Shown here: piece after piece, positions 1-21,500 of the stretch | How the letters are laid out: each line of letters starts with the position of its first letter | Position numbering within the stretch: position 1 is the first letter of the stretch | IMG/VR virus record: IMGVR_UViG_3300010389_000158 | Coordinates: 1 to 22,130 of that record | Reading direction: 5' to 3' (one strand) | DNA length: 22,130 nucleotides | Source of the DNA: a virus | Notes under the pieces: model-generated | What the model saw: the letters and a program-made list of their open reading frames with translations, nothing else | Database searches by the model: none | Told to the model about the DNA's origin: nothing | Translations under genes and position numbers: made by a program

Positions 1-205
1 TATTATCTCTATATCTGTGAGATGAGTCAAATAGAGTAAGTGGTTCTGATGTTCTGGTTCTACCAAAAGCATCTGGATTTACACTTACTGGAAATCTGTT
101 GAGATTATCAACAATTTTTCCGTCCCTTGTTGCAGCACCAAAAACTTCAAAAAGACTTCTTTCTTGGTTTAGATAATCTTGTGTAGTTATATTCCACTGA
201 GCCAT
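1..205 (-). CDS. Virion structural protein, N-terminal 68 residues (runs off the left edge)
   Basis: An ATG at 205-203 opens a frame that stays open to position 1, so only the N-terminus is present. It begins MAQWNITTQDYLNQE and continues with a segment reading DAFGRTRTSEPLTLFDSSHRY. From memory, the MAQWNI..Q.YLNQE start and the AFGR.R.SEP.TLFDS..RY stretch are typical of virion structural proteins of marine T4-like phages. No domain with known biochemistry is visible. Only 3 nt separate it from the upstream 102-aa gene, and a GGGGTGA stretch about 9 nt before the ATG can serve as a weak ribosome site. It is not gp17: no Walker motif or terminase feature is seen, although too little is present to classify it fully. 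Inference: a particle component made with the late genes. Confidence 0.72.
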   Translation of the reverse strand, partial: MAQWNITTQDYLNQERSLFEVFGAATRDGKIVDNLNRFPVSVNPDAFGRTRTSEPLTLFDSSHRYRDN

Positions 206-208
206 TAA

Positions 209-517
209 TCATTCACCCCAAGTTAATCTTTCTGGTTGATATCTTTGTATATTTTTAACTATTGATTGCTGAGAACTGGATGGGTAAATATTGTGAACAA
301 TTGCTCCTGGATATTCTCCTTGGAGATGTTCTGCAAGTTCATTCTTGCTCATTATTCCACCCTCAACCTCCATTCTGTATATTTTTCCTTCCCAAACCAC
401 ATCTGCAAAAAATGATTCTTTTGTAGTTTCTGGTTCCGAACTATTGATATAGAGATTTCCGTTGAAATCCCCAGAGATATTTACAGACTCTGACAGAAAT
501 TGCTTAAAACTTTTCAT
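209..517 (-). CDS. Small protein with T4-like capsid-targeting leader; probable internal virion protein (102 aa)
   Basis: The protein starts MKSFKQFLSE-SV. T4 internal proteins begin MKTYQEFIAE, a ten-residue capsid-targeting sequence that prohead protease gp21 removes after [L/I]-x-E. Here the match is M-K-[T/S]-[Y/F]-x-[E/Q]-F-[I/L]-x-E, with LSE followed by Ser. The remaining 92 residues hold a W-x-G-K strand (W42 to K45), a YPGA turn (69-72) and a C-terminal RYQPERLTW segment. The central 60 residues resemble residues 390-465 of the 546-aa protein encoded just upstream. There is no signal peptide, membrane span or cysteine. Its ATG lies 1 nt after the stop of the 546-aa gene, and no clear Shine-Dalgarno is present, so coupling is likely. 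I recall similar small proteins in cyanophages but know no function. Internal-protein role is inference. Confidence 0.8.
   Translation of the reverse strand: MKSFKQFLSESVNISGDFNGNLYINSSEPETTKESFFADVVWEGKIYRMEVEGGIMSKNELAEHLQGEYPGAIVHNIYPSSSQQSIVKNIQRYQPERLTWGE
488..517 (-). other. Candidate capsid-targeting sequence with prohead protease site
   Basis: These ten codons read MKSFKQFLSE. They align without gaps to the T4 internal-protein leader MKTYQEFIAE. M1, K2, F7 and E10 are identical, and T/S3, Y/F4, E/Q6, I/L8 and A/S9 are conservative. The expected gp21 cut would fall after E10 (L-S-E, then S). The leader function in T4 is established; in this phage it is inferred from the sequence. Confidence 0.55.
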
Positions 518-518
518 G

Positions 519-2159
519 TTAGTTACAGTTCCAACGACGGAGGGCTTTGTTGATTCTTGAATCGGGATCTCTTGCAGTTTCTGCAGAAGTTAATCTTTTC
601 TTCATACCTTTCATCCTACTGCAAAATGATTTGCGACGCTCTGCTCTTTTACCTGTTGGTTTCTTTTCAGTTACTGCAGTTTGCAATTTTGATCCTGGGT
701 TTTCTTTACGGTATGCATCAACTGCTTTTTGACTTAAACCATCAGTTTTATCCTGGCGATTTACTTTTTGCCAGTCTTCTATTTGTAAAAACTGTTCACC
801 TGGTTTAATGTCAGAAATATAATATGATTGTACTTTAGCACCAGGATAGACCTTATTCAATTGATCTTGAACTTCTGATCTGTTTGGTTTTGTTAATTGG
901 GGGAAGAACATTTTAATCATGAAATATTTTCCTCTCCAATTCAAAGTAACGAGAATGATATTTCCAGTTTTTGACGGAATACGGACCGATTCTTTTACAT
1001 TTTTGATTGGTTCTGGTTTAACCAAATCAATAACTTCTACAAAAGTATTTCCTTCAAAATCTTCAATAGTTTCTTCTGGCACGCAGTTTGGAACAACCTT
1101 TTTACCCTTCTTTTTCATACCAACTTGTTTATATCCACTCCAACATGCTTCATCCATTTCTCCACCAGCAACATAATCTGCTGCAGTATCAATATAATCT
1201 GCTGCTTTTGTAATTTTTGATTGAACCCAAGCTTCTAAATTTCCCTCACCGTTTTCAACCTTTGCCTTTAATCTTCTTACAGCGTCTACTATCGTACTCA
1301 ATTCTGAGCGAACCATTGAATATTCTTCATCTTTTACAGAAACTTTGTCCCAGGCCTTTTCTCCATAAGAACATTCCGATCTAGTTTCTCTCTTCTTACA
1401 AAGTGGACAATATCTTTCTTCCTCATGCATATGCATTTCCTCTGTTTTAGTTCCCCAATTTGCAGCACCAACTTTACGACACTTTACCAATGCACCCGAT
1501 GCATATGCACTTGGCCAAACATCATATCTAGATTTTACTTTTCTGTAGCAAGCATCTTTATTGCCACTACCTTTACTTGGTTTGTCCTTTACTTCTTGAA
1601 GTTCCATTTCTTCAGTTCTTACATTAGTTGGTTTTGCTCCACCAGTTTTTTCTGGTTGATTGGGGTCTTGTCTATTTTTTCTTCTTCTTGCTCTCTCTTC
1701 CTCTTCTGGGGAAAGATTTGCTGACATTTTAGAACTTCCGCATTTTGGTGTAGAAGTTTGTCCAGGTTGACGAGCACATGGTTTACCTGCCCATTTTCCG
1801 CCAAGTTGAACCCATCCTTTTTTACCATCAGAAGATTTTGACTTATTAAACCAATCGTGAAGACCTTCATCTCCAGATTTAGTTTCTTCGTAAGCAATAC
1901 CTCTCTTTGTATGTTTAAGTTCTCCCTTTTGTTTTGCAATCAATTTTTTAGATAATGCTCCAACATTAATATCAATTGGATTTTCATCTGGAGTTTTTTT
2001 CTTCGGATTATCATAAACATCAACATCCCCATCGGCATCACGATCAACATATTGAACTGTTGAGTGATGCACCAATTGTTTTAGATCAACATTGGGATCC
2101 AACTGATGCTGTTTCCCTTTAAGATGTGGTGTTTTGTGAGAAAACTTTTGATATTTCAT
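519..2159 (-). CDS. Modular cysteine-motif protein, possible internal or DNA-associated virion protein (546 aa)
   Basis: The protein is hydrophilic, Lys-rich and built from short modules joined by acidic linkers. In order: DRDADGDVDVYD at 39-50, a perfect DxDxDGxDxxxD calcium-loop pattern; a W-V-Q-L-G-G-K-W module with C128-x11-C140; a CYRKVKSRY...VKCRKVGAANWG module with C204-x22-C227; CPLC...C at 251-263; a helical stretch (about 275-332); DEACWSGYKQVGMKKK...VPNC with C339-x19-C359; a strand module with W408 and YPGA (438-441) resembling the next gene product; and a C-terminal FCSRMKGMKKRL...RRWNC with C513-x31-C545. I recognise several modules as recurrent in marine T4-like phage proteins; the first Cys module resembles what Pfam calls DUF5872, from memory. 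Function is unknown. The ATG overlaps the stop of the 51-aa gene (ATGA). No signal peptide or membrane span. Zinc or DNA binding is inference from paired Cys and basic charge. Confidence 0.82.
   Translation of the reverse strand: MKYQKFSHKTPHLKGKQHQLDPNVDLKQLVHHSTVQYVDRDADGDVDVYDNPKKKTPDENPIDINVGALSKKLIAKQKGELKHTKRGIAYEETKSGDEGLHDWFNKSKSSDGKKGWVQLGGKWAGKPCARQPGQTSTPKCGSSKMSANLSPEEEERARRRKNRQDPNQPEKTGGAKPTNVRTEEMELQEVKDKPSKGSGNKDACYRKVKSRYDVWPSAYASGALVKCRKVGAANWGTKTEEMHMHEEERYCPLCKKRETRSECSYGEKAWDKVSVKDEEYSMVRSELSTIVDAVRRLKAKVENGEGNLEAWVQSKITKAADYIDTAADYVAGGEMDEACWSGYKQVGMKKKGKKVVPNCVPEETIEDFEGNTFVEVIDLVKPEPIKNVKESVRIPSKTGNIILVTLNWRGKYFMIKMFFPQLTKPNRSEVQDQLNKVYPGAKVQSYYISDIKPGEQFLQIEDWQKVNRQDKTDGLSQKAVDAYRKENPGSKLQTAVTEKKPTGKRAERRKSFCSRMKGMKKRLTSAETARDPDSRINKALRRWNCN
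765..992 (-). repeat. YPGA module duplicated in the adjacent 102-aa gene
   Basis: Residues 390-465 of the 546-aa protein and residues 11-100 of the neighbouring 102-aa protein share a layout: SV near the start, W-x-G-K on a strand, a 27-30 residue spacer with a helix, YPGA-x-V, then Y and a final W. Identity is low outside these anchors, so this would be an old duplication or two uses of one family domain. Confidence 0.5.
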
Positions 2160-2311
2160 TCAACTGGTTTTGATTTAGTTTCTTCGCCTTTTGCCCTTTT
2201 TACTCTAGCAGCACAATGAGCACGCTGAGAAAAACCCTTTGGGTTTGAGCAATCAATACTCTTTTTATATTTATTACTCCACTCTTCTTGAAATTCTTTA
2301 AATGTCTTCAT
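2156..2311 (-). CDS. Small cysteine-motif protein (51 aa) overlapping gp16
   Basis: The frame runs from ATG at 2311 to TGA at 2156. It starts MKTFKEFQEEW and contains DCSNPKGFSQRAHCAAR, giving C21-x11-C33, then a basic tail ending ETKSKPVE. The C-x11-C spacing equals that of the first Cys pair (C128/C140) in the next protein. From memory, the DC.NPKGFSQ.AHC motif recurs in small marine T4-like phage proteins, which supports it as a real gene despite its length. Its start overlaps the gp16 end by 14 nt in another frame, and its stop overlaps the next start as ATGA, so translation is probably coupled; no Shine-Dalgarno is visible. The first seven residues resemble the T4 capsid-targeting leader, but position 8 is Gln and there is no [L/I]-x-E cleavage site. 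Function unknown. Confidence 0.78.
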   Translation of the reverse strand: MKTFKEFQEEWSNKYKKSIDCSNPKGFSQRAHCAARVKRAKGEETKSKPVE

Positions 2312-2735
2312 TTTTTGGTTGATTTTTTAGCAATTTAGCTAACTCTGCAGTAGAACCAACAAACAAAGCATTGGTTACATTTGTTGGGCCCTTAGATTGC
2401 CTCTCCTCTTCTACATCTTTTAGTTTTTTCTGCAGATCCATCAATTTATCAGTCGCATCTGCAACATTTTTAATCAACTGTCCGGCAACCTCATAAGCTC
2501 TTGGCATCTCACTTTCTTGCGCTAATTCAAGAATACCATTTATAGCTTCTTGACCTTTTTCAATTAAACTGTAAAGATTTCCTCTTGTATATTCATAATC
2601 TTTTTTAATATCATCAATAGAATTTGAACTTTTTTCTACCTTCTCTGGCTCACTTTTACTTATCTCGCTGGATACCACTTCACTTTCAACATTAAAAGTA
2701 TCGTTGAGTTTATCAAACTTTTTTGTCATCTTCAT
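2298..2735 (-). CDS. gp16: Terminase small subunit, gp16-like (145 aa)
   Basis: In T4, gp16 recognises concatemeric DNA and stimulates the gp17 ATPase/nuclease during head filling. The central part carries YSLIEKGQEAINGILELAQ followed by SEMPRAYEVAGQLIKN; the SE.PRAYEV signature and the surrounding long helices are diagnostic of the T4 gp16 family, whose central helices drive ring oligomerisation. An acidic, Ser-rich N-terminus (about 1-45) and a flexible C-terminus flank the core, as expected; T4 gp16 is 164 aa. The start overlaps the gp15 stop as ATGA, and GGGAG sits 8 nt before the ATG, so MKMTKK is the likely start. The large subunit gp17, normally the next gene in T4, is not found downstream in this window; four other genes intervene. 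Confidence 0.92.
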   Translation of the reverse strand: MKMTKKFDKLNDTFNVESEVVSSEISKSEPEKVEKSSNSIDDIKKDYEYTRGNLYSLIEKGQEAINGILELAQESEMPRAYEVAGQLIKNVADATDKLMDLQKKLKDVEEERQSKGPTNVTNALFVGSTAELAKLLKNQPKNEDI

Positions 2736-3775: not shown

Positions 3776-5210
3776 GATTGCCAAATGGATTTCTTTCATC
3801 AAAATCGAGTATTAAATCTGCTTCTTCTTCTATTGTCGAATTATCAGCAAATCCATCTAATGGATTTGTGTCTACCAATCTTAATTGGTGAGAGGCACTT
3901 GAAGCAGAACCAACTATAGTTTCTCCGATTAAAAATGATCCAGAAACAGTAGCAACTTCTAAAACATTTGTTGTAGAATTCCAGCTTCTAACTCTTGCAG
4001 TAGTTCCACTTGATGATCCGGTAATAATTTCGTTGAAAACAAAGTTTCCAGTTGAAGTTAGCGATGGATTTGATATTACCACTGTTGGAGCAACACTATA
4101 TCCTAGACCTGCATTCGTAATTCTAATAGAAGTTATTGTACCTGCAGCACTTACAACAGCCGTTGCAGCTGCTGAAACAGTAGAAACTCCTGGCAAGAAG
4201 ATTTCATTTGTAAAAGATACTTGTGGTGAAGTAGCATATCCAGAACCTGCATTGGTGATCGTTACTACACCAACTATACCATCACCAATAGTTGCTGTGG
4301 CTATAAAACCAGAACCAGATTCGCTTATGACTCTTACTCCAGGAGCAGTTGTATAACCATAACCAGGATTTATTAGTTGTATACTTTGAATAGATTTTGC
4401 ACTTGGATTTACATTATCTGTACATGCAACAATTCCACTAATCATTTCTGCTGTAGCAATTCCGGTTACTCCTCCAGATGGCGCTGAAGATATTGCTACA
4501 GTTGGTGTTGATAGATATCCACCACCTCTATTTGATATAGTAACAAATCTTATACCACCATTCACTATTCCAGTGATAGCAGTTGCTGTTACTCCAACAC
4601 CAACCATTGTTAATTTTTGAACTCCTCCTAAAATAGTAGGAATTCCGTCACCATCGACACCAGAATATTCTCCACCATTAAGAGTATCATCAATTTCATC
4701 TACCCCAGTGTCTATAATTTCATCTTCATATCTAAAGAGTTCGCATCTTAGAACATAGACATAATTTTTTTGCAATTGATAAAAGGGTTTTTCATGTTCA
4801 ACAAATTTTATTTCAAATAATCTATCTCCCAATGGGAAATAAATTAGATCACCCTCCTTTGGTCTTGATGATAATTTTATATTACTTTTATTCTTTATTA
4901 ATGGTTGAATATATGTTTCCCATCGTTCTGATGAAATTATGAGAGTTATCTCCTGTGTTGATTGGATGCCAAATTTTGATAAGATTGTCGTATTATCAGA
5001 ATAACCCTCATAATTCTCCACATACGCCTCTATTGGAAATGCATCATCAAATTCTGACTGTATTACTTCCTGTATTACTGTCTTTTCTGTTATATATTTT
5101 CTTGGCAAATAGTGAACATCAACCCCATACATTCTCAACTGTTCATTGATGAGATCTTGTATTAAATTTTGTTCTGTTTTAGAGCCTTGAAGAAAAAATG
5201 GATTAAGCAT
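3771..5210 (-). CDS. gp14: Neck protein gp14-like, with large beta-repeat insertion (479 aa)
   Basis: With gp13, gp14 forms the neck ring that closes the filled head and accepts the tail. The core (1-180) starts MLNPFFLQGS and includes DLINEQLRMYGVDVHYLPRK, ILSKFGIQ, EGDLIYFPLGDRLFEIKFVE and YVLRCELFRYEDE, all strong family signatures. Residues about 190-445 are a glycine-rich insertion with four GxGY repeats (near 230, 284, 323 and 369) and one SG/GE repeat (390-440). The tail (446-479) is acidic and ends FDERNPFGNP, typical for the family. T4 gp14 is 256 aa, so over 200 residues are extra. I chose the ATG at 5210, 1 nt after the gp13 stop, over an in-frame TTG three codons upstream that overlaps gp13. 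No good Shine-Dalgarno; coupling to gp13 is likely. Confidence 0.88.
   Translation of the reverse strand: MLNPFFLQGSKTEQNLIQDLINEQLRMYGVDVHYLPRKYITEKTVIQEVIQSEFDDAFPIEAYVENYEGYSDNTTILSKFGIQSTQEITLIISSERWETYIQPLIKNKSNIKLSSRPKEGDLIYFPLGDRLFEIKFVEHEKPFYQLQKNYVYVLRCELFRYEDEIIDTGVDEIDDTLNGGEYSGVDGDGIPTILGGVQKLTMVGVGVTATAITGIVNGGIRFVTISNRGGGYLSTPTVAISSAPSGGVTGIATAEMISGIVACTDNVNPSAKSIQSIQLINPGYGYTTAPGVRVISESGSGFIATATIGDGIVGVVTITNAGSGYATSPQVSFTNEIFLPGVSTVSAAATAVVSAAGTITSIRITNAGLGYSVAPTVVISNPSLTSTGNFVFNEIITGSSSGTTARVRSWNSTTNVLEVATVSGSFLIGETIVGSASSASHQLRLVDTNPLDGFADNSTIEEEADLILDFDERNPFGNP
3876..4643 (-). repeat. GxGY and GE/SG beta-repeat array inside gp14
   Basis: Four units share the layout 'I..V.I.N.G.GY...P.V.I': SNRGGGYLSTPTVAIS, INPGYGYTTAPGVRV, TNAGSGYATSPQVSF and TNAGLGYSVAPTVVIS. 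They are followed by one FNEIITGSSSGTTARV...GSFLIGETIVGSASSAS unit. The units occupy the join between the neck core and the conserved C-terminal tail. Confidence 0.75.
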
Positions 5211-5211
5211 T

Positions 5212-6060
5212 TTATCCAATCATATCTAATGGTGGAAGTTCGTATGTACTAGACATCATTTCTTTTATGTCATCAAGTTCTTTCTGTGCGTCGTCATACA
5301 ACTGTCTACCATTTAATTCTACTCCGCCCGGTAGTTTTACTCCTTGGAATTTGATAAGATTTTGTCCCCACTGCTTTTTAATGAGAGCAGTAAGATATTT
5401 TTTTAAGAAAGAATCATTCCAAACTCTTGTATAATCATTTGGATCCAATATCCTATAGCAATCTATAATTAAATAATCTCCTGGAGTAACACTTCCCCAA
5501 TCTATATCCAAATATAATCTATCTTGTCTTTGATTAAATCTAATCTGCTTTTGGGTTGTTAATAAAAAATCAATATCTTCTAGATATGTCTTTGTCATTG
5601 CATATGTTAATATTTCAGTCGATCCCCAGTAGTAAATATCATTTAAGAATAATTGATATTTAACACTAAACATATTATTTGTAGTTGTATTACTCCCATC
5701 AAAATGATATATTTTGGTAATTCCAATTACTGATGGTGGAACTTGTAAAAAATTACTATTTTCTTTAAAGGAAAATGTTAATGGGGAACCATTGATTGTT
5801 GTTGATGCTGTGGTAGTAACGATACCCGCAGAAGGATTTGCTCCACCAGGAGCTTGTCCTCTATCAATATCATCTTGAGTTACTTGATACTTTAAAAATA
5901 TTTGTGATACTCCATCAAAATGCCTTTCCTGAAAATACTGTAAGGCATCATCGACAAGATCGTCAATTTGTTCATCTGCAATGTTTATCTCTAAGACCGG
6001 TGCACCAAGTTGCCTCTTGCAGTAATTTATTAAATCTTGTCTACTTGATGGTTGAGCCAT
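5212..6060 (-). CDS. gp13: Neck protein gp13-like (282 aa)
   Basis: gp13 pairs with gp14 in the neck at the portal vertex after DNA packaging. The N-terminus MAQPSSRQDLINYCKRQLGA, then PVLEINIADEQIDDLVDDAL and QYFQERHFDG, is the usual opening of gp13 in marine T4-like phages. The C-terminal third carries FLKKYLTALIKKQWGQNL, KFQGVKLPGGVELNGRQLYD and ends LPPLDMIG. T4 gp13 is 309 aa, so length is normal and, unlike gp14 and gp15, no glycine-rich insert is present. A GATAAATA box and AAGGAG (6077-6072, 11 nt before the ATG) precede the start, which makes it the head of a likely gp13-gp14 unit. It ends 1 nt before gp14. Confidence 0.92.
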   Translation of the reverse strand: MAQPSSRQDLINYCKRQLGAPVLEINIADEQIDDLVDDALQYFQERHFDGVSQIFLKYQVTQDDIDRGQAPGGANPSAGIVTTTASTTINGSPLTFSFKENSNFLQVPPSVIGITKIYHFDGSNTTTNNMFSVKYQLFLNDIYYWGSTEILTYAMTKTYLEDIDFLLTTQKQIRFNQRQDRLYLDIDWGSVTPGDYLIIDCYRILDPNDYTRVWNDSFLKKYLTALIKKQWGQNLIKFQGVKLPGGVELNGRQLYDDAQKELDDIKEMMSSTYELPPLDMIG

Positions 6061-6082
6061 TTAATTATATTCTCCTTAATTG

Positions 6083-6090
6083 TATTTATC
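6083..6090 (-). promoter_or_regulatory. Late-promoter-like box upstream of gp13
   Basis: The minus strand reads GATAAATA, seven of eight matches to the T4 late promoter. It ends 22 nt before the gp13 ATG in a 45-nt gap. By T4 spacing the transcript would start about 6 nt further on, at or next to the AAGGAG ribosome site (6077-6072), giving a very short leader. Confidence 0.6.
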
Positions 6091-6105
6091 TTATCTGTAA
6101 TAGAA

Positions 6106-6285
6106 TCAGATATTAATTTGACCCATATTTGATATTAGTTCCTGCTGTTTCAAATATAATTTAAAATATGCTTTTGCAATATTTTTGATCTCATCAATAT
6201 CATCTATATTATCTATTTCTGAACAGTATTTGAAATATTCAAAACTTTTGGTCAAATTTTCCAATTCTATTTTATCGGGATCCAT
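6106..6285 (-). CDS. Small acidic helical protein (59 aa), conserved-type T4-like phage gene
   Basis: ATG at 6285, TGA at 6106. The product starts MDPDKIELENLTKSFEYFKY, has an acidic middle (EIDNIDDIDEIKN) and ends AYFKLYLKQQELISNMGQINI. It appears almost wholly alpha-helical and has no signal peptide or membrane span. I recall a similar small protein with a 'LENL.K..EY' start and 'KLY.KQQE' end in marine T4-like phages, without a known function. AAGGAG lies exactly 7 nt before the ATG, inside the 3' end of the preceding gene, with which it overlaps by 14 nt; this good site fixes the start and supports expression. It ends 45 nt before gp13, so it is the last gene of its likely transcription unit. 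Confidence 0.8.
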   Translation of the reverse strand: MDPDKIELENLTKSFEYFKYCSEIDNIDDIDEIKNIAKAYFKLYLKQQELISNMGQINI

Positions 6286-6499
6286 TTAAAAACTCCTTTA
6301 ATAAAGATTTTATTTCATCTATGTCACTCTTCATACTAGCAACTTCTTGCTCAATAGTTTGTACTTTTTGATTCTTTTCCATTTTTGAAGATCGCCTTGC
6401 AACATATTGTTCATACTCTAATCGATTTACATTCAATACGGAGTTTGTTTGTGGATCCCTCGCTAGGTCGGAATGACCTTCAACATTGTAGTATTCCAT
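6272..6499 (-). CDS. Small coiled-coil protein (75 aa), conserved-type T4-like phage gene
   Basis: The product begins MEYYNVEGHSDLARDPQTNS, followed by VLNVNRLEYEQYVARRSSK and a C-terminal segment (about 42-72) with heptad spacing of Ile, Val, Met and Leu that suggests a coiled coil. The YNVEGHSDL.RDPQTNS opening is familiar to me from small genes next to neck genes in marine T4-like phages; no function is known. I chose the ATG at 6499, 1 nt after the stop of the DUF4815 gene, rather than an in-frame TTG at 6514 that would overlap it and add five residues. No Shine-Dalgarno is seen, so coupling to the upstream gene is likely. It overlaps the 59-aa gene by 14 nt. Confidence 0.82.
   Translation of the reverse strand: MEYYNVEGHSDLARDPQTNSVLNVNRLEYEQYVARRSSKMEKNQKVQTIEQEVASMKSDIDEIKSLLKEFLNGSR
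6293..6298 (-). promoter_or_regulatory. Ribosome binding site for the 59-aa gene
   Basis: AAGGAG on the minus strand, 7 nt before the ATG at 6285 and inside the coding end of the 75-aa gene. It is one of the clearest Shine-Dalgarno sites in the window and identifies the correct start of the small gene. Confidence 0.7.
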
Positions 6500-6500
6500 A

Positions 6501-9500
6501 TTAAGCAAGAGCAATAACTCTTAGATCTTTGATTCTTGGTACATAAACTTGACTGGTTGATGTTAGAATAAGTTTTACTCTATAGGACTTAAATGATGGT
6601 AGTTGATCGGCAGTAAATACATATTCCCTAAATTCAAGATTTTCACTTGAAAATCCATATGTATTGGTTTTTGTAATAAATTTATCAGATTCTCCATTAT
6701 TATTTTGTTCTGAAATCACTTGACCCTTTTCATTTAAGTTTGAATAACCTGGGAATGGTACAAAAATTGGTTCAAATCCTGGATTATTATCAACCGCATA
6801 TAAAGCTCTTATATCGCAATTTAAATTGATATGAGCAGAAACTAAGATTTTCAAAGAAGATGCTGGATTTTCCAAGATTATTTCTTTAGAAATATATTGA
6901 CAAGCAGATGGATCGTCACCAATAGCATTAACTCTGCTATCTGTAGCATAATCCTCAATAACACTATTAACTCTATTTGATGTTAAGACAACACCAACTC
7001 TCTGAGCATCAACCACTGGCGAGACACGAGTATCGACCGTATTTAATAGTAGTCTCATATTCAGTGATTTGGAACCAGGAATATTTGACAACTTGGCATC
7101 CTCATTAACTTTTGATGCAATTAGTCTTGGACTATCCAAGTAGTTTGAATCGCTGATTGATATTGATTCAAATCCATTGTTCAAATATGGTATTTCATTT
7201 CCACTCATACTCTGTGAAGTAATTGTTCTTACCTGAGCAGAAACACTGGTTCCTCTAACTGAAACATTTTGTACGATAGGAGTTATTACTTCAAAAGGCA
7301 TATTTTGTGTTGCCTTAATATTGTAACCTCCAGCAGATTTACTTTGATTAATATAAAGAGCTGGATATCCAAGATCATCACTTCTATCATCATTATTTGC
7401 ATCAAGTGCTTCCATATTCAGTTTAATATGATATGAATCGAAAGTTATTGGATTATCAATAGTAACCTCACTTAAATCATGAATTTTATTAATTCTCTTC
7501 AGATTAACTCCAGATAATTCATACTTATAAACAGGAGTTCCTACTGGGTAAGTTAACGGATTTGTTCCTCTAACAATATTACCTCCAATAAGATTTCCAC
7601 TAACATTGGTATACTCTATAATTTCGTTACCAATTAATAGATAACCTATATTTGTGGTTCCAACTCCAACATTTTCAAATGTTGTAAAATTAGTCGAACT
7701 ATCTACAGATATTGAACCAGTGGAATCTGCAGAATATTCTGCACTTAACTTAGTTGGTTTAATATCTGGAAGAACATCTGATATTCTCACTAAGTTATCA
7801 TTGAAGTACATGCCATGATTCTTATGATTTACTTTTACATGTAAACCATCATTCTCAACATCTATAGAAGATAATGTAACATTTCCACCAACTGAATAGT
7901 TTAATACAGTTGTTATACCTGCACTATTAGCATATTGCATAGTATAACCAACACCTGTAACAAAATTACCTTGAACATTATCAAGTATCAACTCATTAGT
8001 TGCACCAATTCCCGCAATGGTAAATCTTGCATTTCTTCCAATAGAACCACTACCTATTGTCGTTATTCCTAAAACATCACCGAGTTGGTATCCCGATCCA
8101 CCACTTGTTATTGTTGCTGCAACAGCAACGCCATTATTGACAGAAACATCTGCTATTGCTCCCTTACCGCTACCCGTGACGGTTACTAAATTGACTCCAG
8201 AGAAAGTATAATTTCCACTTGATGGAGTATAACCAATACCAGCATTTGATACTGTTAGAGTTCCTACAGCTGATCCTGCCACACCAACTAAATTGCCTGT
8301 TGCATTTGTTCCTTGTTGGGAGAAAGTATTTCCAAATGCATATCCTGAATCAGATAAGGTTGTTCCAAGTCCTACTCTAATTCTTCTTGAATTTAAAATT
8401 AGAGAATCTGGCAATAGTTTTGCTATCTGACCATTACCTTCATTTAATTCTGGATTGTAGAATTCGACAGAACCAGATTCTATAAAATCTGCTCTGTATA
8501 GAGTAAATTTCAGATCTTCCCATTGACTTGCTTCCCATGTGGAAGCATTTTGTGACTTAAACAGAGAACCTAAGTATGGTTGATTTGATATAAATGTTTG
8601 GGTTAGAAGGTCATTTTCACCAACTCTAGAAATATAAACGCTATACTTTGTTGAATTGGATGCTAAACAAATTGCATATTCCTTACCACCCTCCAGGTAT
8701 ACTGGTGCTTTAAATTCTACTGTTGTTGCTACAGAACCATCTGCAGAAGTGTTAACATCACCAGGCTCTAAGACAATTTCGGAAAATGGTAAAACTCTTT
8801 GAGTTGGGAATCCATTTTCCATAGTTCTCAGTTGGAAAACAAGAGGAATATCCATATCATCTTTAGATCTAAAGAAGATATCACACTTAGTCAAGAATAC
8901 TCCAGTTTCATCTTCAACTAAGAAAGATTGTGCAAGAGGATCATACCAACCAATTTGAACTTGTCTCTGTGATTGTGATAGAGTTGTGCTCGCAACTACT
9001 TGTGTTCCTAATGTTCTATTAATATTTCTACTTTCGAACTCCTGTTTGTTCTCAACCCTGGCATTTCTTACTGAAATAATATTTTCTTGAACTGTTTCTA
9101 AAGTTCCGGAAGCAGAAAATGCTTCTTCTGCAATTGTCGTTGCAATGTCTTGATTATTATCGGCATCATTTGTTAGTGTAAATATTTTAGAACCAGTCTC
9201 AAATCTTGGGTGATTTACACTATTTGGATTTGGGATAAAGTAACTACCAATCAAAGTTGCAGACAAATCAGATACCAATCTGACATTCGTTATTGTAGCC
9301 CTTGCACCACTAGTTTCTCCAATTAAAACCATTCCACTTTCAACATAACCAGAATACTGTCCTTGTGCTTGATTGGAAAGTGAGAAAGTATCAATATTCA
9401 AAATGGTTGATGTTGATGAATATGTGTCAGATAGTGGTTGACTTGTGTATGGATTGTTGACAAAAGTGGATGTTGGTGCATCATAAGGTCCTTCCTTATG

Positions 9501-12500
9501 ATTAGATTGTGCAACTCTAAATGTTATTTTTGGTGTAGTGTCAGTTAAATTTGGATTTAATCCAGTATTAATAACACTACCAAATACTTTTTCACCAACC
9601 TGGAATGCTCCAGATGTCATTGACACTTCAAGTAGTTTTGGAACACAATATCTTGTTACATTAATGCCATCAAAGAAAGCATATAGTTGAGTCAAAGGTT
9701 TAACTCTCTTAGAAATGAATTCGACATTTCTAGATCTCATGTAAGGAATGAGATCTCTACTTACAACTCTATCTCCTACAGAAGTAGTATCAAACTGCTC
9801 AGAAACAACTGTTCTTGTTCCCGTTCTAGTTTGAACTCCAGTTTCAACAACTTCTCTTAGATCTTCTCTAATAACTCTTGTTGTTTGAGTGTCCCAAGCA
9901 GTGCGTCCTGTTCCTCCCCATAGAACTCCTCTCCATTCACCACCAGTAACTTCTGTTCTTTGTCTGGTTGTATTTACTACATCAGTTCCAGTCCAATTAG
10001 TTTGCCAAGAATTCCAAAGAATTGGTCCAAATCCAGTTTGAGGATCTACGATTCCAGTTCTTGCCAGATTATTCAAGGTTTCTGCATAATTACCTTCAGT
10101 ATTGATAATTTTTGCTTCTAATCTTGTGGTATCGACCCAAGTATCTGATGCTGGATTTAATTCAACTGTTCCCTGCCAGAAACTAATGAGGAAAGGAGTT
10201 ACACTTTCTGATCTTGTTGCAAATGTTTGTGATAACCATTCAACTTCAGAATAATCCAAGGTTACGACATCATTAGATCTTCTAACATTATTACCTTCAA
10301 TAGCAGAAAATGCTAAGTCTTCAGTTGGATCTGTATTCGTTACGGGCCCAAAAACCAAATCTATCGAACTTGTATAGTGTCTTGGTCTTAATTCTTTATT
10401 TTTTGCATCAATACTATTTTTAATATCTATGTTTTGTTCTTGTGGTGTAAATGAACTAAAGTTATCTACTAAAAATCCCGATTTAAACCTATTCAATCCA
10501 TCCGAATCTGGAATAAACAAATTAGCAGTATTTGTTTCAAGTAAGGACAATGCGGTGTAATATTCAAGATTTCTGATCCTATTTTCAAGTTGCTTAATAT
10601 CAACCATTCTATATCTTTTGTGTTCCAAAAATTGGATAGATGCTTGAGAAACATCATAAAGATATGGTGGTAGGGATATTGTTGCTATTTCTATAGCTTC
10701 ATCCACTGCAGATGGTTTTTCAGGTCTTTCTGCTGGTTCTCCATATTTTACTTGAAAGATTCCTTCTTTAGTTAAGAAAATTCTATCAATTCTTCCCAAA
10801 TAATAAGAAAATGTTGTTAGAATTGATTCATCTGACGCCAAAATGTTGGCAGCAGAATTTCCAGAACCACTGTAAGATCTTCCATAGAATTCTAAAGGAG
10901 ATCTTGTTCCTTCGGATACTGAATATGAAGATACTCTTGGTCTTATATCGAGAATATCAGAAACAGAATTTCCATTTACTGATTGTAGATCTTTAGAGTA
11001 ATCAAATTGGGAGTATGAAGCAATAGTAGTGATGTCTCCATCATCAGTGGAATCATAATATCCGTTTGAAAAGTAAACTTTTAGTTTTTTGGAAGGTTCT
11101 TGCGAATCTGACTTTCTCTTTATAGTTCCATAATCATAAAATGTTCCTTCTTGACCAGTAGTAAATATGTAGTTTGATGATATTTCAAAACTGGAGAAAT
11201 CTAAGGTGTTAACTACAGCCTGAACATTTGATTCTTGGAAAACAATAGTTTCTCCTTCCTTAAATCTATTATCATTCTTATAGATAAAGGATATTTGGGC
11301 ATCTGATAATTTTTCTGCACATAGCGCAACTGCTCCACTTACTTGTCCAATAAAAACTTCACCAATAATTAATTCTGTGGTTGTTGATGATGAGCTATTG
11401 ATTGAAGAAAGTGTTACTTTAGGTGCTGATGGATTGCTTGTATCAATAGATTCATATATGCCATGAATTTCTATGATATCTGGTGTATTTAATGACAGGA
11501 CTTCATCTTGAACTCTAGTACCAAATGGATAATTTCCATAAGTCAAACCATCATTTAAAGTAGTTGTACCAACTCCTGATGCAGAATACTTAGAGTTAAC
11601 GATAGTTACTGAATTAACTCTGTTTTTAATTTTTTGTTTAGCTTTTATATTTGTCTTTCTTAATGTGGCAACTAATGTTGCTCCAGTATCATCTGTTCCA
11701 AGATTATAAATTTGAAGTTGAGTTCCCCCAGAAGAAAATACAAGTTTATCTGAGGTTAAAACTTCGGTAGTACCATCGGATCTTATTAGGGAATATCTCT
11801 CTTCATCAAATGGTAAAAATGTCTCATTTGTTCCAGATACAACGACACTTGATAGTTGATTTGATGAAATATTAACACTATATTGTTTTCTGATTGTTAG
11901 ATTTGCCTCTGTCAAATCTACAGAAGATATATTTGATTTGGGTAACTTTGTATATAAAGTATCATCTGAGGATGATTGTAGTTTGGTAGTTAATACTTTT
12001 AAATCTGTAACATTCAGTAGACTTGCTGGGAGATCGCCAGAAGCTATTCCAGAAACTGTATTAACTGCTTCAATTGTTATATTATTAGTTCCAACACTTA
12101 GAACTTTTGCATAAGTAATATCTGTGTTATCTGAATTTGTATATTGAATAATATTATTTTCTTTAACAGAACTCAAAAATAGTGGATTTATGCTTGTTAC
12201 TGTACTTACTCCACCAGAACCAGCACTTATCGTTGCTATACCAACATTATAAGAAACTGACTGAATTACATCTGCACTAAAAGTGGACCCAAGACCTACT
12301 ACTCCATCATTAGTACCAAAAACTGATTTTACATCAGAGACTGAATGCTCTGTTACTGCAATAGCTATCCTTCCATTTGAAATTCCATCAAATATTAAAG
12401 ATTCATTTTCAATAAACTTTCCAGATGTTTCATAAACTGTTAAAGCAGTTCCAGCAGAAACGGAATCTTTAAGGAAAGCAGTAGCACCACTGTTAGCACC

Positions 12501-13994
12501 TTTTACAAAAGTTGGTGTTGAAAGGGTAATACCCTCATTCAGTGTTATTTCTGTAACTGTTTGAATATCAAATAGAGAAATATTCCACTGATTCAAATTT
12601 CCATTTGTTGCGTCATATGAGCCAGATTCCAATTTGAAATCATAAACTCTTGCAACTCCAATCTCTTTACCCGGAGCAATCTTTGGGTCGGAACCAGTTC
12701 TACTATCTCTTAAACTTAATACATAAGTATTACCTATCCCAAGAATAGGAGATCCGTCAACTCTATTGAGACTAAAAGTTGGACCAGTATTATAAATTAT
12801 CGATTGATCTTCAATAGTTTTAGTCGTTCTTGGTTTATTAACATCAATAAATGTTGGATTTAGCGTTTCAACATCATATCCTCTAACAAAAGCTCTTCCT
12901 GGAGAAATTTTATATAATGCTAAGTCATCTGAAGGAGTTGCTCCACCATAAGTAAATTGACCATCTTGAAAAACTCCTCTATTACCAACATTATCATTTA
13001 GAGATTCTAGAACCGAAAGATTAAAAGCATTTACATAATAATCTCCGGATTCTGCATATGTTCTTTTTGCTAATGTATCTCTAAGTTCTAAATATCCAAC
13101 TCCACCACCAAGATCTCCCCTATCAACTTTTGATTTTAATACACCATCAACTACTGTAGCTAATTCAATAAAATTATCATCATTAAAATCACTTAATGAC
13201 TTCTTGAATAAACTTGTAGTTATTTTTAATCTATCTGCCCCGGGAGCAGAATAGTTATTAAATCCTTGAGAATTATCATTTAAAGATTCGTCAATATTTG
13301 CGTTGACAATCTCTTCTCTTACAAATAATCCTATTCTATAATTCGGAATATTGCTATATTGATCTAAAATGAGAGTCTCAGTCTCTACATTTACAAAGTT
13401 TCCGCGAATAAAATATACACCACTCTGAATTTGGAAAGAAGAACCAATAGCAGCAGCTTCCGATGCAATGGTAGTAGCAAAAGGAGATCCTGCTGGAATT
13501 GTGGAGTTTCCTAAAAGACCAGATGAAATTGTGGTATCACAAGTAAGTGACTCTGCATCAAAAAATGTTTGCGTAGAATTATTTGTTGTGCTTGAATTTA
13601 AATAATTCACATAAAGAGTTAAAGTTCCCCTTTCAGAATTTTGCGGTAAAAGAACTTGGTCAACATATGCAGTCACACCAGATGTTTGTCCCGTAATTCT
13701 GGTTCCAACCAACTGCTCTGCATATGCCGCAACTGGAACACCTTGATATGTATTATTTAACTGTATACAATAGTATACCTGATTATATCCAATATTTCCA
13801 GGTATAACCTTGGCACCTTCCTTGAAGAAATGTTGTCCAAATTTTTCAATTTGGTTTTGCAGTATTGATTGTAAAGTAGTTAATTCTCTTGCTTGTACAG
13901 GATATCCTGGTTTAAAGAGAACCCTATGGTAATCATTTGATGGATCAAAATCGTCAAAATATGGAGCTACGTTTAGATTCGTTTGCTGAGACAT
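6501..13994 (-). CDS. Giant DUF4815 tail/baseplate structural protein (2497 aa)
   Basis: The N-terminus has the DUF4815 opening: DFDPSNDYHRVLFKPGYPVQ then ARELTTLQSILQNQIEKFG (15-53), with later hallmarks RTYAESGDYYV (311-321) and ISPGRAFVRGYDVE (363-376). A central block (about 1405-1460) reads DRVVSRDLIPYMRSRNVEF and LYAFFDGINVTRYCVPKLLE; a second (about 1680-1800) has GWYDPLAQSFLV, IPLVFQLR and a YLEGGKEYAICLAS strand. GxGY repeats lie near 1915-1985 and an E[IV]..RG..GT module near 2118-2156. The C-terminus ends VPRIKDLRVIALA, which I recall as typical. It sits between gp8 and gp13, where T4 has gp9 to gp12 and fibritin, so a baseplate-periphery or fibre-attachment role is likely by position. 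DUF4815 proteins are annotated as phage structural proteins; the exact site in this particle is inference. It starts 6 nt after gp8. Confidence 0.87.
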   Translation of the reverse strand: MSQQTNLNVAPYFDDFDPSNDYHRVLFKPGYPVQARELTTLQSILQNQIEKFGQHFFKEGAKVIPGNIGYNQVYYCIQLNNTYQGVPVAAYAEQLVGTRITGQTSGVTAYVDQVLLPQNSERGTLTLYVNYLNSSTTNNSTQTFFDAESLTCDTTISSGLLGNSTIPAGSPFATTIASEAAAIGSSFQIQSGVYFIRGNFVNVETETLILDQYSNIPNYRIGLFVREEIVNANIDESLNDNSQGFNNYSAPGADRLKITTSLFKKSLSDFNDDNFIELATVVDGVLKSKVDRGDLGGGVGYLELRDTLAKRTYAESGDYYVNAFNLSVLESLNDNVGNRGVFQDGQFTYGGATPSDDLALYKISPGRAFVRGYDVETLNPTFIDVNKPRTTKTIEDQSIIYNTGPTFSLNRVDGSPILGIGNTYVLSLRDSRTGSDPKIAPGKEIGVARVYDFKLESGSYDATNGNLNQWNISLFDIQTVTEITLNEGITLSTPTFVKGANSGATAFLKDSVSAGTALTVYETSGKFIENESLIFDGISNGRIAIAVTEHSVSDVKSVFGTNDGVVGLGSTFSADVIQSVSYNVGIATISAGSGGVSTVTSINPLFLSSVKENNIIQYTNSDNTDITYAKVLSVGTNNITIEAVNTVSGIASGDLPASLLNVTDLKVLTTKLQSSSDDTLYTKLPKSNISSVDLTEANLTIRKQYSVNISSNQLSSVVVSGTNETFLPFDEERYSLIRSDGTTEVLTSDKLVFSSGGTQLQIYNLGTDDTGATLVATLRKTNIKAKQKIKNRVNSVTIVNSKYSASGVGTTTLNDGLTYGNYPFGTRVQDEVLSLNTPDIIEIHGIYESIDTSNPSAPKVTLSSINSSSSTTTELIIGEVFIGQVSGAVALCAEKLSDAQISFIYKNDNRFKEGETIVFQESNVQAVVNTLDFSSFEISSNYIFTTGQEGTFYDYGTIKRKSDSQEPSKKLKVYFSNGYYDSTDDGDITTIASYSQFDYSKDLQSVNGNSVSDILDIRPRVSSYSVSEGTRSPLEFYGRSYSGSGNSAANILASDESILTTFSYYLGRIDRIFLTKEGIFQVKYGEPAERPEKPSAVDEAIEIATISLPPYLYDVSQASIQFLEHKRYRMVDIKQLENRIRNLEYYTALSLLETNTANLFIPDSDGLNRFKSGFLVDNFSSFTPQEQNIDIKNSIDAKNKELRPRHYTSSIDLVFGPVTNTDPTEDLAFSAIEGNNVRRSNDVVTLDYSEVEWLSQTFATRSESVTPFLISFWQGTVELNPASDTWVDTTRLEAKIINTEGNYAETLNNLARTGIVDPQTGFGPILWNSWQTNWTGTDVVNTTRQRTEVTGGEWRGVLWGGTGRTAWDTQTTRVIREDLREVVETGVQTRTGTRTVVSEQFDTTSVGDRVVSRDLIPYMRSRNVEFISKRVKPLTQLYAFFDGINVTRYCVPKLLEVSMTSGAFQVGEKVFGSVINTGLNPNLTDTTPKITFRVAQSNHKEGPYDAPTSTFVNNPYTSQPLSDTYSSTSTILNIDTFSLSNQAQGQYSGYVESGMVLIGETSGARATITNVRLVSDLSATLIGSYFIPNPNSVNHPRFETGSKIFTLTNDADNNQDIATTIAEEAFSASGTLETVQENIISVRNARVENKQEFESRNINRTLGTQVVASTTLSQSQRQVQIGWYDPLAQSFLVEDETGVFLTKCDIFFRSKDDMDIPLVFQLRTMENGFPTQRVLPFSEIVLEPGDVNTSADGSVATTVEFKAPVYLEGGKEYAICLASNSTKYSVYISRVGENDLLTQTFISNQPYLGSLFKSQNASTWEASQWEDLKFTLYRADFIESGSVEFYNPELNEGNGQIAKLLPDSLILNSRRIRVGLGTTLSDSGYAFGNTFSQQGTNATGNLVGVAGSAVGTLTVSNAGIGYTPSSGNYTFSGVNLVTVTGSGKGAIADVSVNNGVAVAATITSGGSGYQLGDVLGITTIGSGSIGRNARFTIAGIGATNELILDNVQGNFVTGVGYTMQYANSAGITTVLNYSVGGNVTLSSIDVENDGLHVKVNHKNHGMYFNDNLVRISDVLPDIKPTKLSAEYSADSTGSISVDSSTNFTTFENVGVGTTNIGYLLIGNEIIEYTNVSGNLIGGNIVRGTNPLTYPVGTPVYKYELSGVNLKRINKIHDLSEVTIDNPITFDSYHIKLNMEALDANNDDRSDDLGYPALYINQSKSAGGYNIKATQNMPFEVITPIVQNVSVRGTSVSAQVRTITSQSMSGNEIPYLNNGFESISISDSNYLDSPRLIASKVNEDAKLSNIPGSKSLNMRLLLNTVDTRVSPVVDAQRVGVVLTSNRVNSVIEDYATDSRVNAIGDDPSACQYISKEIILENPASSLKILVSAHINLNCDIRALYAVDNNPGFEPIFVPFPGYSNLNEKGQVISEQNNNGESDKFITKTNTYGFSSENLEFREYVFTADQLPSFKSYRVKLILTSTSQVYVPRIKDLRVIALA
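8060..8260 (-). repeat. GxGY repeat pair inside the DUF4815 protein
   Basis: Two units, TVSNAGIGYTPSSGNYTF and ATITSGGSGYQLGDVLGI, lie about 45 residues apart near residues 1915-1985. They match the repeat family found in gp14, gp8 and the giant upstream protein. Confidence 0.65.
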
Positions 13995-18500: not shown

Positions 18501-21500
18501 TTTCGCTACCAATCTTTATCAAATCACTTCCAAAGAATGATGTTATTCCAGTAAATTTGATGATATCATCAGTAGTAAAAACTTGGTCAGCAAGTGTTGT
18601 TGTTACTGCAGTTGATACAATAGGCGATTGAATAATGTTATCTAGTGCAACAATAAGTTTTGCATTTTGGTTGGTTGAAACAAATCGGTGAGATGTTCCA
18701 ATACCTACACTAGTAATATCTAATACTTCAGGAACAGTTTTGAGAGCATTTTCTGCACTAGATGCAAGTTTTATTTTGTTCTCATCAACTTTTACAGCAT
18801 AAATGCTTGTCGTAATTCCAGATGGAACTTTATCGGTCGATCCAACTCCTGACATCGTTGTGGTTGCAATGCCAATAGCTTGAGTTGATCCAACTCCCGC
18901 ATGATAATATACAATATTTTCTCCACTTACAAAGAAGTGGTTTGGTATAGTAATCGTATTGTCCAAAATATCAACAATGTTACTATCACTTCCATCAAAA
19001 TATCTTTCGAAAATCTGATAATTTTTATGATTTAAATTGAAAGATCTCTTAATCTCTCTTTCTGTTCCTGTATACTCTGAGAAATTGGTTTCTATAGTGG
19101 CATTATTGAAATCAATAATATTAATATCCTTATCATCATCTTGATATCTCAATGCATTCATGTAAACCTTGACTTGAGTATCGATACTTGGATTTGGAGT
19201 AAATACCAATTCAACAGACCCTGTAATTGTTACTCTTGTTCCAAATGTGCCGAGACCGGAAGAAGTTTCTATAATTCCATATTCAGTATCATAACTATCT
19301 CCAGTTCCAGCAGATAATATGTAGTCATCAACAACAACTATTTCTGACATTTGGTAATTGTTGTTTGTTGTGTCAGAAACTTGAGTAATAAAATATGCAG
19401 CATCATATTCCTCATCATATCCACCTACTACATTTTCTGTTGGCGATCCTGATGCAGAAATTGTTGTTGATCTTGCTTCAATTTTTGCATGTTTCATCAA
19501 AATAGTTCCAATTCCACTATAAGAGGAATCTGATAATGCTACTTGAATGGTGTTAATCGCACCTGTAGTACCTATACCAACTCCCGAATTTGGAATAAAA
19601 TCAATCTTTAATTCTGATCCACTGAAATATGGATAGTATGTGCCAAGGCCAGATGAAGAATATGATCCAGGTATTGTGGTTAATTGTCCATATTCCAATA
19701 ATTCTATATTGGTTCCGTCATGAACTATATTAAGTTCTTCAAATTCAAATTCATTAGTGTTTATGTCTGGAGTTATCTCTACTAATACTTTTACCGTAGT
19801 ATATGTGCTACCAATTCCAACAATAGTTGTTGATATTCCTGAGGAAACAGTGACACTATCTGTATTAATTAGTCCAATTCCACCAATACTCGTGCTACCA
19901 ACACTTAGAAGGTTATCATCAATATTGTACGATAAGCAAGTAATGTTATAGTCATTTACTGTCGATTTTACTGGATAGAAAAGTAATTGCCCATCATTTC
20001 CAGAAATTGAGAAATCAAAGGATCCTTGATCATAATAAGTTTCCAATCTTCCATATTGGTTTATATATCCAAATGATCTATCATGGATTAAGTCTACAAT
20101 CAGAAGTTGTCTCTGAGCTTCAAATCTCTTGTCAGATACAAATGTAATATACTTTTGTACTCTAACATCAGATAAGTTAAATGTATCGACTACACTGAAC
20201 CTTGTTGGTCTAGGATTGCTATTAAATTCTGCACTTATATCATCAATAGATAACACTCTATTGCCAATAGATTCTTCATAATCTGATAGAATCTTATTTG
20301 CAAATATTATTTCATCAGAAATTACTCCAGAAGTTGAATTTATGGAGTTTTCTCTTACCAAATCAAAATCAGTTACGCAATTTAAATTAACACTTTCCGT
20401 TAGGTCAGTAATAGTTTCAAAATACCCAACATTTGTAGAAACACCAACTACTAAAGAATTTTTATTTTCTGGTTCTAAAGAAGATTCTAATTGATAGTCA
20501 GAAAACTTTTTAAATCCTAAAGTATGGTTTAGAGATCCAACAACATCTTTCCAAGTATCAAAATCAACTCTAGATTTTAGTGAATATGAAAAATTCTGAT
20601 AATAAAAGCTATCTTGAATTCTCTGCAGATTGTCATTTAAGAATCCAGATACTAACTGCCAACCTTTTTCAACTTTAGATGATGAATTGACTTTATACTG
20701 CGAATTAAATTTAATCGTTGATGATACTAGACCCCTTGTACTTGACGATTTTCCTTCAAGTATCTCTCCATTTTCTATAGTTTGATTTGAAGATATTTTT
20801 AATAATTTATTTGTAGAATCCCACTCATCGACCACTCCGACAAAAGATGAAGATGTTGAACCAACAATTTCTCCTTTAAAATAATCGTTAGATTTTAGTA
20901 TCGGATTAAATATTGGGAAATCTTTCTCCGCAATAATTCTTCCAGAAGAATTAATAGGATCAAAACTTCCTATAAATTCTCCAGGTTGAATCAAATTCGA
21001 AATATTATAAGTAACCGATCCAATTCCACCAATATTTGAATCGACTTGAGTTAAAGTGAAAAGTTGATAATCATAATTTTTAGAATCAAATCCCTTTCCT
21101 GTGGATCCAATACCAATACTTACATTTTCGATTAAAACTCGATCATTAACTGCGAATGGGAAAGAATCCAATGAACTAAAACCAACTGATAATATTACAG
21201 TTACATTGCCAGTAGATGAATTGTAAGAAATACTACTTATACCAACACCATTTGTATTTTGTGTGGGAAGTATTGTTGGAGTGACATCATTGATTCCATA
21301 TGTATTTTTAATAATTTCAACTTGAGAGCTTCCCAAGGTATACCTCAAATCAACATCATCAATCAACTCGTTTGTTTTTCCATCAAGAACTAAAAGTTTT
21401 GGTGCAGATGTATAACCTTTACCAAAAGAAGTTACTCCAATAGACTCAAATGAGGAGAATGGTTCTATTTTTGCAATTATTGGTAATGATGCACTTGGTC

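Follow-up and report, generated by a model that had tools for sequence, protein, structure and literature searches.

A probable T4-type capsid-targeting leader on a small head-module protein and on unrelated proteins of marine T4-like viruses

The late gene module and the leader of the 102-aa protein

The window analysed here is the whole of the 22,130-base virus record IMGVR_UViG_3300010389_000158. Its minus strand carries a T4-like late module, in which gp13 and gp14 (both neck), gp15 and gp16 are followed by genes for proteins of 51, 546 and 102 aa and by the start of a virion structural gene (Table 1). The 102-aa gene, originally described as lying after gp16, is the third gene from it. 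Relatives of the 102-aa protein (phrog_1742) occur in 135 cyanophage records, and at least 489 were found among the IMG/VR stretches examined.

Table 1. Features of the late module in the window, with the basis of each assignment
Feature	Position	Strand	Basis
gp16, small terminase	2298..2735	-	Pfam DNA_Packaging 1.1e-8; phrog_445 2.9e-56
51-aa gene, incomplete leader MKTFKEFQEE (F4 and F7 present; Q replaces L/I at 8)	2156..2311	-	translation
546-aa protein without leader	519..2159	-	DUF6321 at C-terminus (about 531-755), Pfam 2.2e-15
Region of 546-aa protein resembling the 102-aa protein body	about 810-992	-	BLASTP 25% identity, E 0.001 (one single comparison)
102-aa gene, phrog_1742 (PHROG function: unknown)	209..517	-	PHROG E 9.6e-41
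Leader MKSFKQFLSE, probable T4-type capsid-targeting sequence, residues 1-10	488..517	-	translation; homolog invariance; tag on unrelated proteins
Predicted prohead-protease cut, L8-S9-E10 / S11	485..490	-	gp21 L/I-x-E rule (PMC9026906); homolog residue 11; gp23 L-x-E of marine phages
Predicted mature domain, residues 34-101 of 102-aa protein	215..418	-	AlphaFold2
Next gene, virion structural protein, cut by window end	2..205	-	phrog_1645 1.3e-19

The rules established for T4 (PMC9026906) served as a yardstick that is independent of the window. In T4, the first ten residues of IPIII are enough for packaging, mutagenesis assigns residues 4 and 7 to capsid targeting and residues 8 and 10 to processing, gp21 cleaves after L/I-x-E, the leaders of the internal proteins (IPs) are 10 to 19 residues long, and the leader pattern has been proven to direct proteins to the prohead core (PMC9026906). 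The first ten codons of the 102-aa ORF, read from 517 down to 488, translate to MKSFKQFLSE, as had been reported, and residue 11 is Ser. Compared with MKTYQEFIAE, this leader is identical at M1, K2, F7 and E10 and conservative at T/S3, Y/F4 and I/L8; the match to T4, previously described as position by position, thus holds for the functional positions, while full identity is limited to four residues. The aromatic residue at 4 together with F7, L8, E10 and S11 reproduces the T4 capsid-targeting pattern and the gp21-type L/I-x-E followed by a small residue, in agreement with the original prediction. The DNA pattern of the leader occurs once in the window, against 0.01 occurrences expected from shuffles.

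In 65 distinct IMG/VR homologs of the 102-aa protein, a set that may be biased by one of its six search patterns lying in the leader itself, M1, K2, F4, F7, S9 and E10 are invariant, position 8 is solely L, I or M, and positions 5 and 6 are variable, so that the invariant residues coincide with the functional residues of the T4 capsid-targeting sequence. Residue 11 of the homologs is S, A or, rarely, G, and the Syn33 homolog carries Y4. A similar profile is found in the NMNAT family, which was collected with patterns that avoided its leader: F4 and F7 each occur in 69/69 sequences, L/I8 in 67/69 and E10 in 66/69, with residues 5, 6 and 9 free. No relation between the NMNATs and the body of the 102-aa protein was found past the leader. 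The likeness to IPIII, IPII and IPI of T4 (Straboviridae) covers the N-terminal ~10 residues (aromatic 4, F7, I/L8, E10, then a small residue); the proteins studied here differ in having mostly F rather than Y at position 4, S at position 11, and bodies that show no relation to the T4 internal proteins. It is very probable that the ten-residue start of the 102-aa protein functions as a capsid-targeting sequence of the T4 type.

The cut pattern of the leader, L/I-x-E and then a small residue, is present here as claimed, but it is not shared by every T4 leader: IPI (MKTFKEFTST...ITEA) has no cut at residues 8-10 and is likely cut at residue 19. In ten marine phages, gp23 keeps L-x-E where T4 gp23 has FLTE / A (residue 65), with the variants FLAE, FLSE, ILTE, MLNE, ILNE, VLNE and FLGE, and the gp21-type cut rule is therefore likely common to T4 and marine T4-like phages. 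Both gp21 and the gp23 L-x-E sites are present in related phages; the window is a fragment, and its protease gene lies outside it. The head propeptides of phiKZ and SPN3US are likewise removed by a distant gp21 relative after a short Glu-ending motif (PMC9026906), a likeness that concerns removal and for which no common targeting motif is claimed.

The same leader-pattern search recovers T4 IPII, IPIII and a T4 ORF of 54 aa (NC_000866, complement 18966-19130), which starts with MKTFKEFIKED and thus has the full capsid-targeting pattern beyond IPI, IPII and IPIII. In the window, the 51-aa gene starts (2282-2311, minus strand) with MKTFKEF, i.e., residues 1-7 of T4 IPI, followed by Q at position 8 and by no later L/I-x-E. 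It was rejected as a full second leader, as its close relatives have Q or R at position 8; one further relative, at IMG/VR locus L460, has I there in a perfect leader (MKTFKEFIEES). The missing cut at residues 8-10 of T4 IPI bears on this gene, which may carry a tag for targeting without cutting or a decaying tag.

For the body of the 102-aa protein, AlphaFold2 predicts a beta-beta-alpha-beta domain at residues 34-101 (pLDDT mostly 75-88; whole-model pTM 0.45), preceded by a short helix at 4-9 (low confidence) and a flexible linker at 10-33 (pLDDT under 50). Pfam gave a sub-threshold match only; in the PDB, the best sequence match had an E of 1.4 and no Foldseek match fell under 0.001; a distant kinship to IPI, IPII or IPIII may have escaped these comparisons. 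The nearest viral models outside its own family are DUF6321 proteins, including S-SCSM1 gp029, and the small domain is recognisable by sequence in the adjoining 546-aa protein. S-SCSM1 gp029 and S-CREM2 ORF137, which are positional or structural counterparts of the 546-aa protein, are virion proteins by MS. The small domain is thus common to the 102-aa protein and the DUF6321 cyanophage virion proteins, whereas the 546-aa DUF6321 protein of the window has no leader and the 102-aa protein has no DUF6321 segment; S-SZBM1 gp084 and IMG/VR locus L404 hold both the leader and DUF6321. A resemblance of the body to T7 Gp2 (Foldseek E 0.22; VIA Z 4.6, rmsd 2.5, 49 residues) would suggest an injected RNA polymerase inhibitor. 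This reading was rejected because small folds often give Z values under 8, and ribosomal domains as well as further small proteins of phages reach similar scores.

Reach of the leader among phage genomes and uncultured viruses

In a scan of 13 phage genomes (3,287 ORFs, called greedily by length without a trained gene finder; 769,810 aa), the strict motif lies at residue 2 in 13 of its 14 occurrences, and the relaxed motif follows 23/5,474 start-near Met versus 2/9,813 internal Met (P 7e-9). The enrichment at N-termini that was anticipated for T4-like phages is therefore found, and it is strong. For uncultured viruses, IMG/VR was searched with the DNA form of MKTF..F[LIMF].E[AS], which matched at least 120 stretches, compared to one match, in a 22-codon frame, for a permuted control of equal information. 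Among the IMG/VR matches listed, 82 of 84 stand at the start of real-looking genes, with frames of at least 51 aa, and an upstream in-frame stop was at most 27 codons away in all but one measurable case. The 80 loci among these matches hold 47 unrelated body clusters behind the leader, and 75 of these loci also encode relatives of T4, cyanophage or pelagiphage proteins. A search of 257 Gb of cellular genomes gave 31 matches, six of them at likely gene starts, including a phage-type NMNAT that may be contamination.

The tagged bodies in IMG/VR include an ADP-ribosyltransferase, GNATs, an NMNAT-P-loop fusion, a DPBB protein (lytic-transglycosylase-type) and DUF6321. The kinases of S-CRM01 and S-CREM2 both begin with the leader, although their homology sets in only at residue 92 of the former, indicating that the leader goes with the N-terminus rather than with the protein behind it. 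It is a tag that can move between unrelated proteins, and chance is already excluded as the source of the motif as a whole. However, the tag is not universal, since the pattern M..[FY]..[FY][ILMVF].E is missing from the genes of S-PM2 and HTVC008M; their gp23 keeps the L-x-E site, and these phages may be without tagged cargo or may use another tag.

Several other arrangements were seen in the course of these searches. Two leader genes per stretch occur at IMG/VR loci L392 (3736-4529), L430, L432 and L460, and those of L392 and L432 overlap or directly adjoin each other; in L392, an unassigned 138-aa protein and then a GNAT acetyltransferase both carry the leader. In S-SKS1 (HQ633071, complement 72899-73234), a leader and the start of an NMNAT end after 111 residues, i.e., a truncated or frameshifted cargo gene. 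The gp16-gp17 interval holds leader genes in S-CRM01 (36132-36791), S-CREM2 (107301-108014), S-SZBM1 (122311-123125) and the window, suggesting that it is a preferred locus for tagged proteins in several cyanophages. A C-terminal version of the tag, prompted by the end of S-SCSM1 gp279 (KKRTFKEFLEYIE), was dismissed as not general, with three C-terminal core motifs in 3,287 ORFs, and the S-SZBM1 ORF at 4192-4383 (MNVYQEYIEE) probably resembles a tagged gene by chance.

Behind the leader, cargo proteins with no other kinship share a module of ~35 residues, A..LGL..DGHG.W.D..TGE.VAKT..G.L.FY. It is found in the NMNATs of P-SSM2, P-SSM4 and S-SCSM1, at IMG/VR loci L389, L410 and L429, and at residue 98 of the S-CRM01 kinase, residue 48 of S-CRM01 g128 and residue 48 of S-CREM2 ORF12. 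In the 13 genomes plus the window, its pattern matches solely leader-bearing proteins (7/7), and it is possibly a second targeting or retention module.

Tagged proteins in published virion proteomes

Virion proteomes are published for S-CREM2, S-SCSM1 and S-SZBM1 (PMC10665884, PMC9602691), and virion data for S-CRM01 were taken as cited in PMC10665884. CsCl-purified cyanophage virions contain NMNAT, kinase, SAM hydrolase and a Cas9-annotated protein, for which the authors left the choice between cargo and contamination undecided (PMC10665884, PMC9602691). In the virion list of S-CREM2, the leader is found at residue 4 of the SAM hydrolase (Pfam S-AdoMet_lyase 2.3e-19), the APH-like kinase (GTG start, VKRFDAFLTE), the cytidylyltransferase and ORF136, as a variant (MKDLHSFLTE) in ORF13, and as a copy at residue 19 of the Cas9-annotated ORF12. 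The NMNATs of S-SCSM1 (MKSFLQFLKE) and S-SZBM1 (MRFRQFIIE) bear the leader as well and are in the respective virion lists. Of the eight carriers that have the motif at residue 3-4, six were detected in virions (P 0.0009), a partly post hoc result, as the pattern was widened after some sequences had been seen; with the pattern fixed beforehand, the association is weaker (4/7 carriers, P 0.025). The proposed use of the leader for listing candidate internal proteins of marine T4-like phages works to the extent that the list includes six cyanophage proteins of published virion presence. In S-CREM2 (OR473000), a span of less than 10 kb (3837-13331) holds ORF6 and ORF12 to ORF15, every one of them virion-detected; it would be a second cargo cassette beside the gp16-gp17 interval, and S-CRM01 99847-104425 looks like its counterpart.

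The two undetected carriers among the eight are the homologs of the 102-aa protein in S-SCSM1 and S-SZBM1, neither of which appears in the virion list of its phage. Shotgun MS can miss a protein that is there; for the S-SZBM1 homolog, at least five usable tryptic peptides are expected. The original prediction that the 102-aa protein is present in the finished head is thus not supported by either proteome. The protein has the leader at residue 3-4 in common with the virion NMNAT, kinase and SAM lyase of S-SCSM1, S-SZBM1, S-CREM2 and S-CRM01, and differs from these enzymes in being small, without a known enzyme fold and undetected in virions.

Fate of the 102-aa protein and meaning of the tag

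In the proposed mechanism, the leader, probably a short amphipathic helix presenting F4 and F7, would attach the 102-aa protein to the prohead's scaffold core. The gp21 prohead protease would then cut after E10 in L-S-E / S and free a 92-residue product, the folded part of which would be residues 34-101. Prohead entry and leader removal are likely for the 102-aa protein, as far as can be inferred from its leader. The weak link of the capsid-targeting reading is the 102-aa protein itself, because its homologs are missing from both virion proteomes able to show them.

What follows after entry may be answered in different ways. The protein may aid assembly in the prohead core and then leave or be degraded, like parts of the T4 core; this is a serious candidate at slightly below even chance, consistent with the lack of detection in mature virions, the position of the gene between gp16 and gp17, and the body domain common to the adjoining DUF6321 virion protein, although just one further conserved L-x-E exists and lies within a predicted helix. 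Alternatively, the protein may follow the course of T4 IPI, staying in the mature head after packaging and cleavage and being injected early to shield the phage. This is the more doubtful course: the tag is that of the T4 internal proteins, of which IPI and IPIII work within the host cell (PMC9026906; PMC9391042), and it is also present on a virion-detected SAM lyase, but two virion proteomes lack the homologs, the gene is conserved among head genes whereas T4 internal proteins are plastic, and no known inhibitor matches the fold of the body significantly. For the 102-aa protein, neither persistence in the mature head nor injection nor a counter-defence role is supported. An assembly-core role or that of a low-copy internal protein is more likely than that of an abundant injected effector, in view of the head-gene location, the wide conservation, the domain common with the DUF6321 virion neighbour and the failure to appear in two proteomes.

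Two further explanations would deny the leader a role in entering the head, and both are very improbable. Ten residues are short and many phage proteins begin with MK, so the N-terminal likeness could have arisen by chance, as an amphipathic start, or by plain inheritance from a single gene, with no targeting function; against this stand the 47 unrelated tagged bodies among the matches listed versus a single match of the permuted control, the near absence of the tag from cellular gene starts, and the confinement of conservation to functional residues. The tag might also direct proteins to the neck or tail, as virion proteomes cannot separate inside from outside. However, the T4 pattern is proven to reach the core (PMC9026906), no function in the tail is known for enzymes such as NMNAT and SAM lyase, and the tag ends in a prohead-protease site.

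The tag itself is known from T4. In the literature searched on capsid targeting and cyanophages, which yielded the T4 review (PMC9026906), its reach across marine viruses appears undescribed; this search was incomplete and may have missed an earlier description. T4-like marine viruses very probably use the tag as a shared address on cargo proteins of many unrelated kinds, among them NMNAT-type nucleotidyltransferases, SAM lyase, protein kinases, a Cas9-annotated protein, an ADP-ribosyltransferase and an acetyltransferase. On balance, we lean slightly towards a general cargo-loading code in these viruses, in which a 10-residue leader, often plus the ~35-residue module, loads a large set of exchangeable enzymes into the head for delivery at the start of infection; these would serve NAD synthesis and SAM destruction and include kinases, ADP-ribosyl and acetyl transferases, and the Cas9-annotated protein. 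The leader gives a simple sequence reason to take the virion NMNAT, kinase, SAM hydrolase and Cas9-annotated protein as cargo. It also allows a homology-free search that yields a list of probably packaged proteins across the very large uncultured T4-like virosphere, and the question of what else than DNA marine phages inject, counter-defence candidates included, becomes directly testable.
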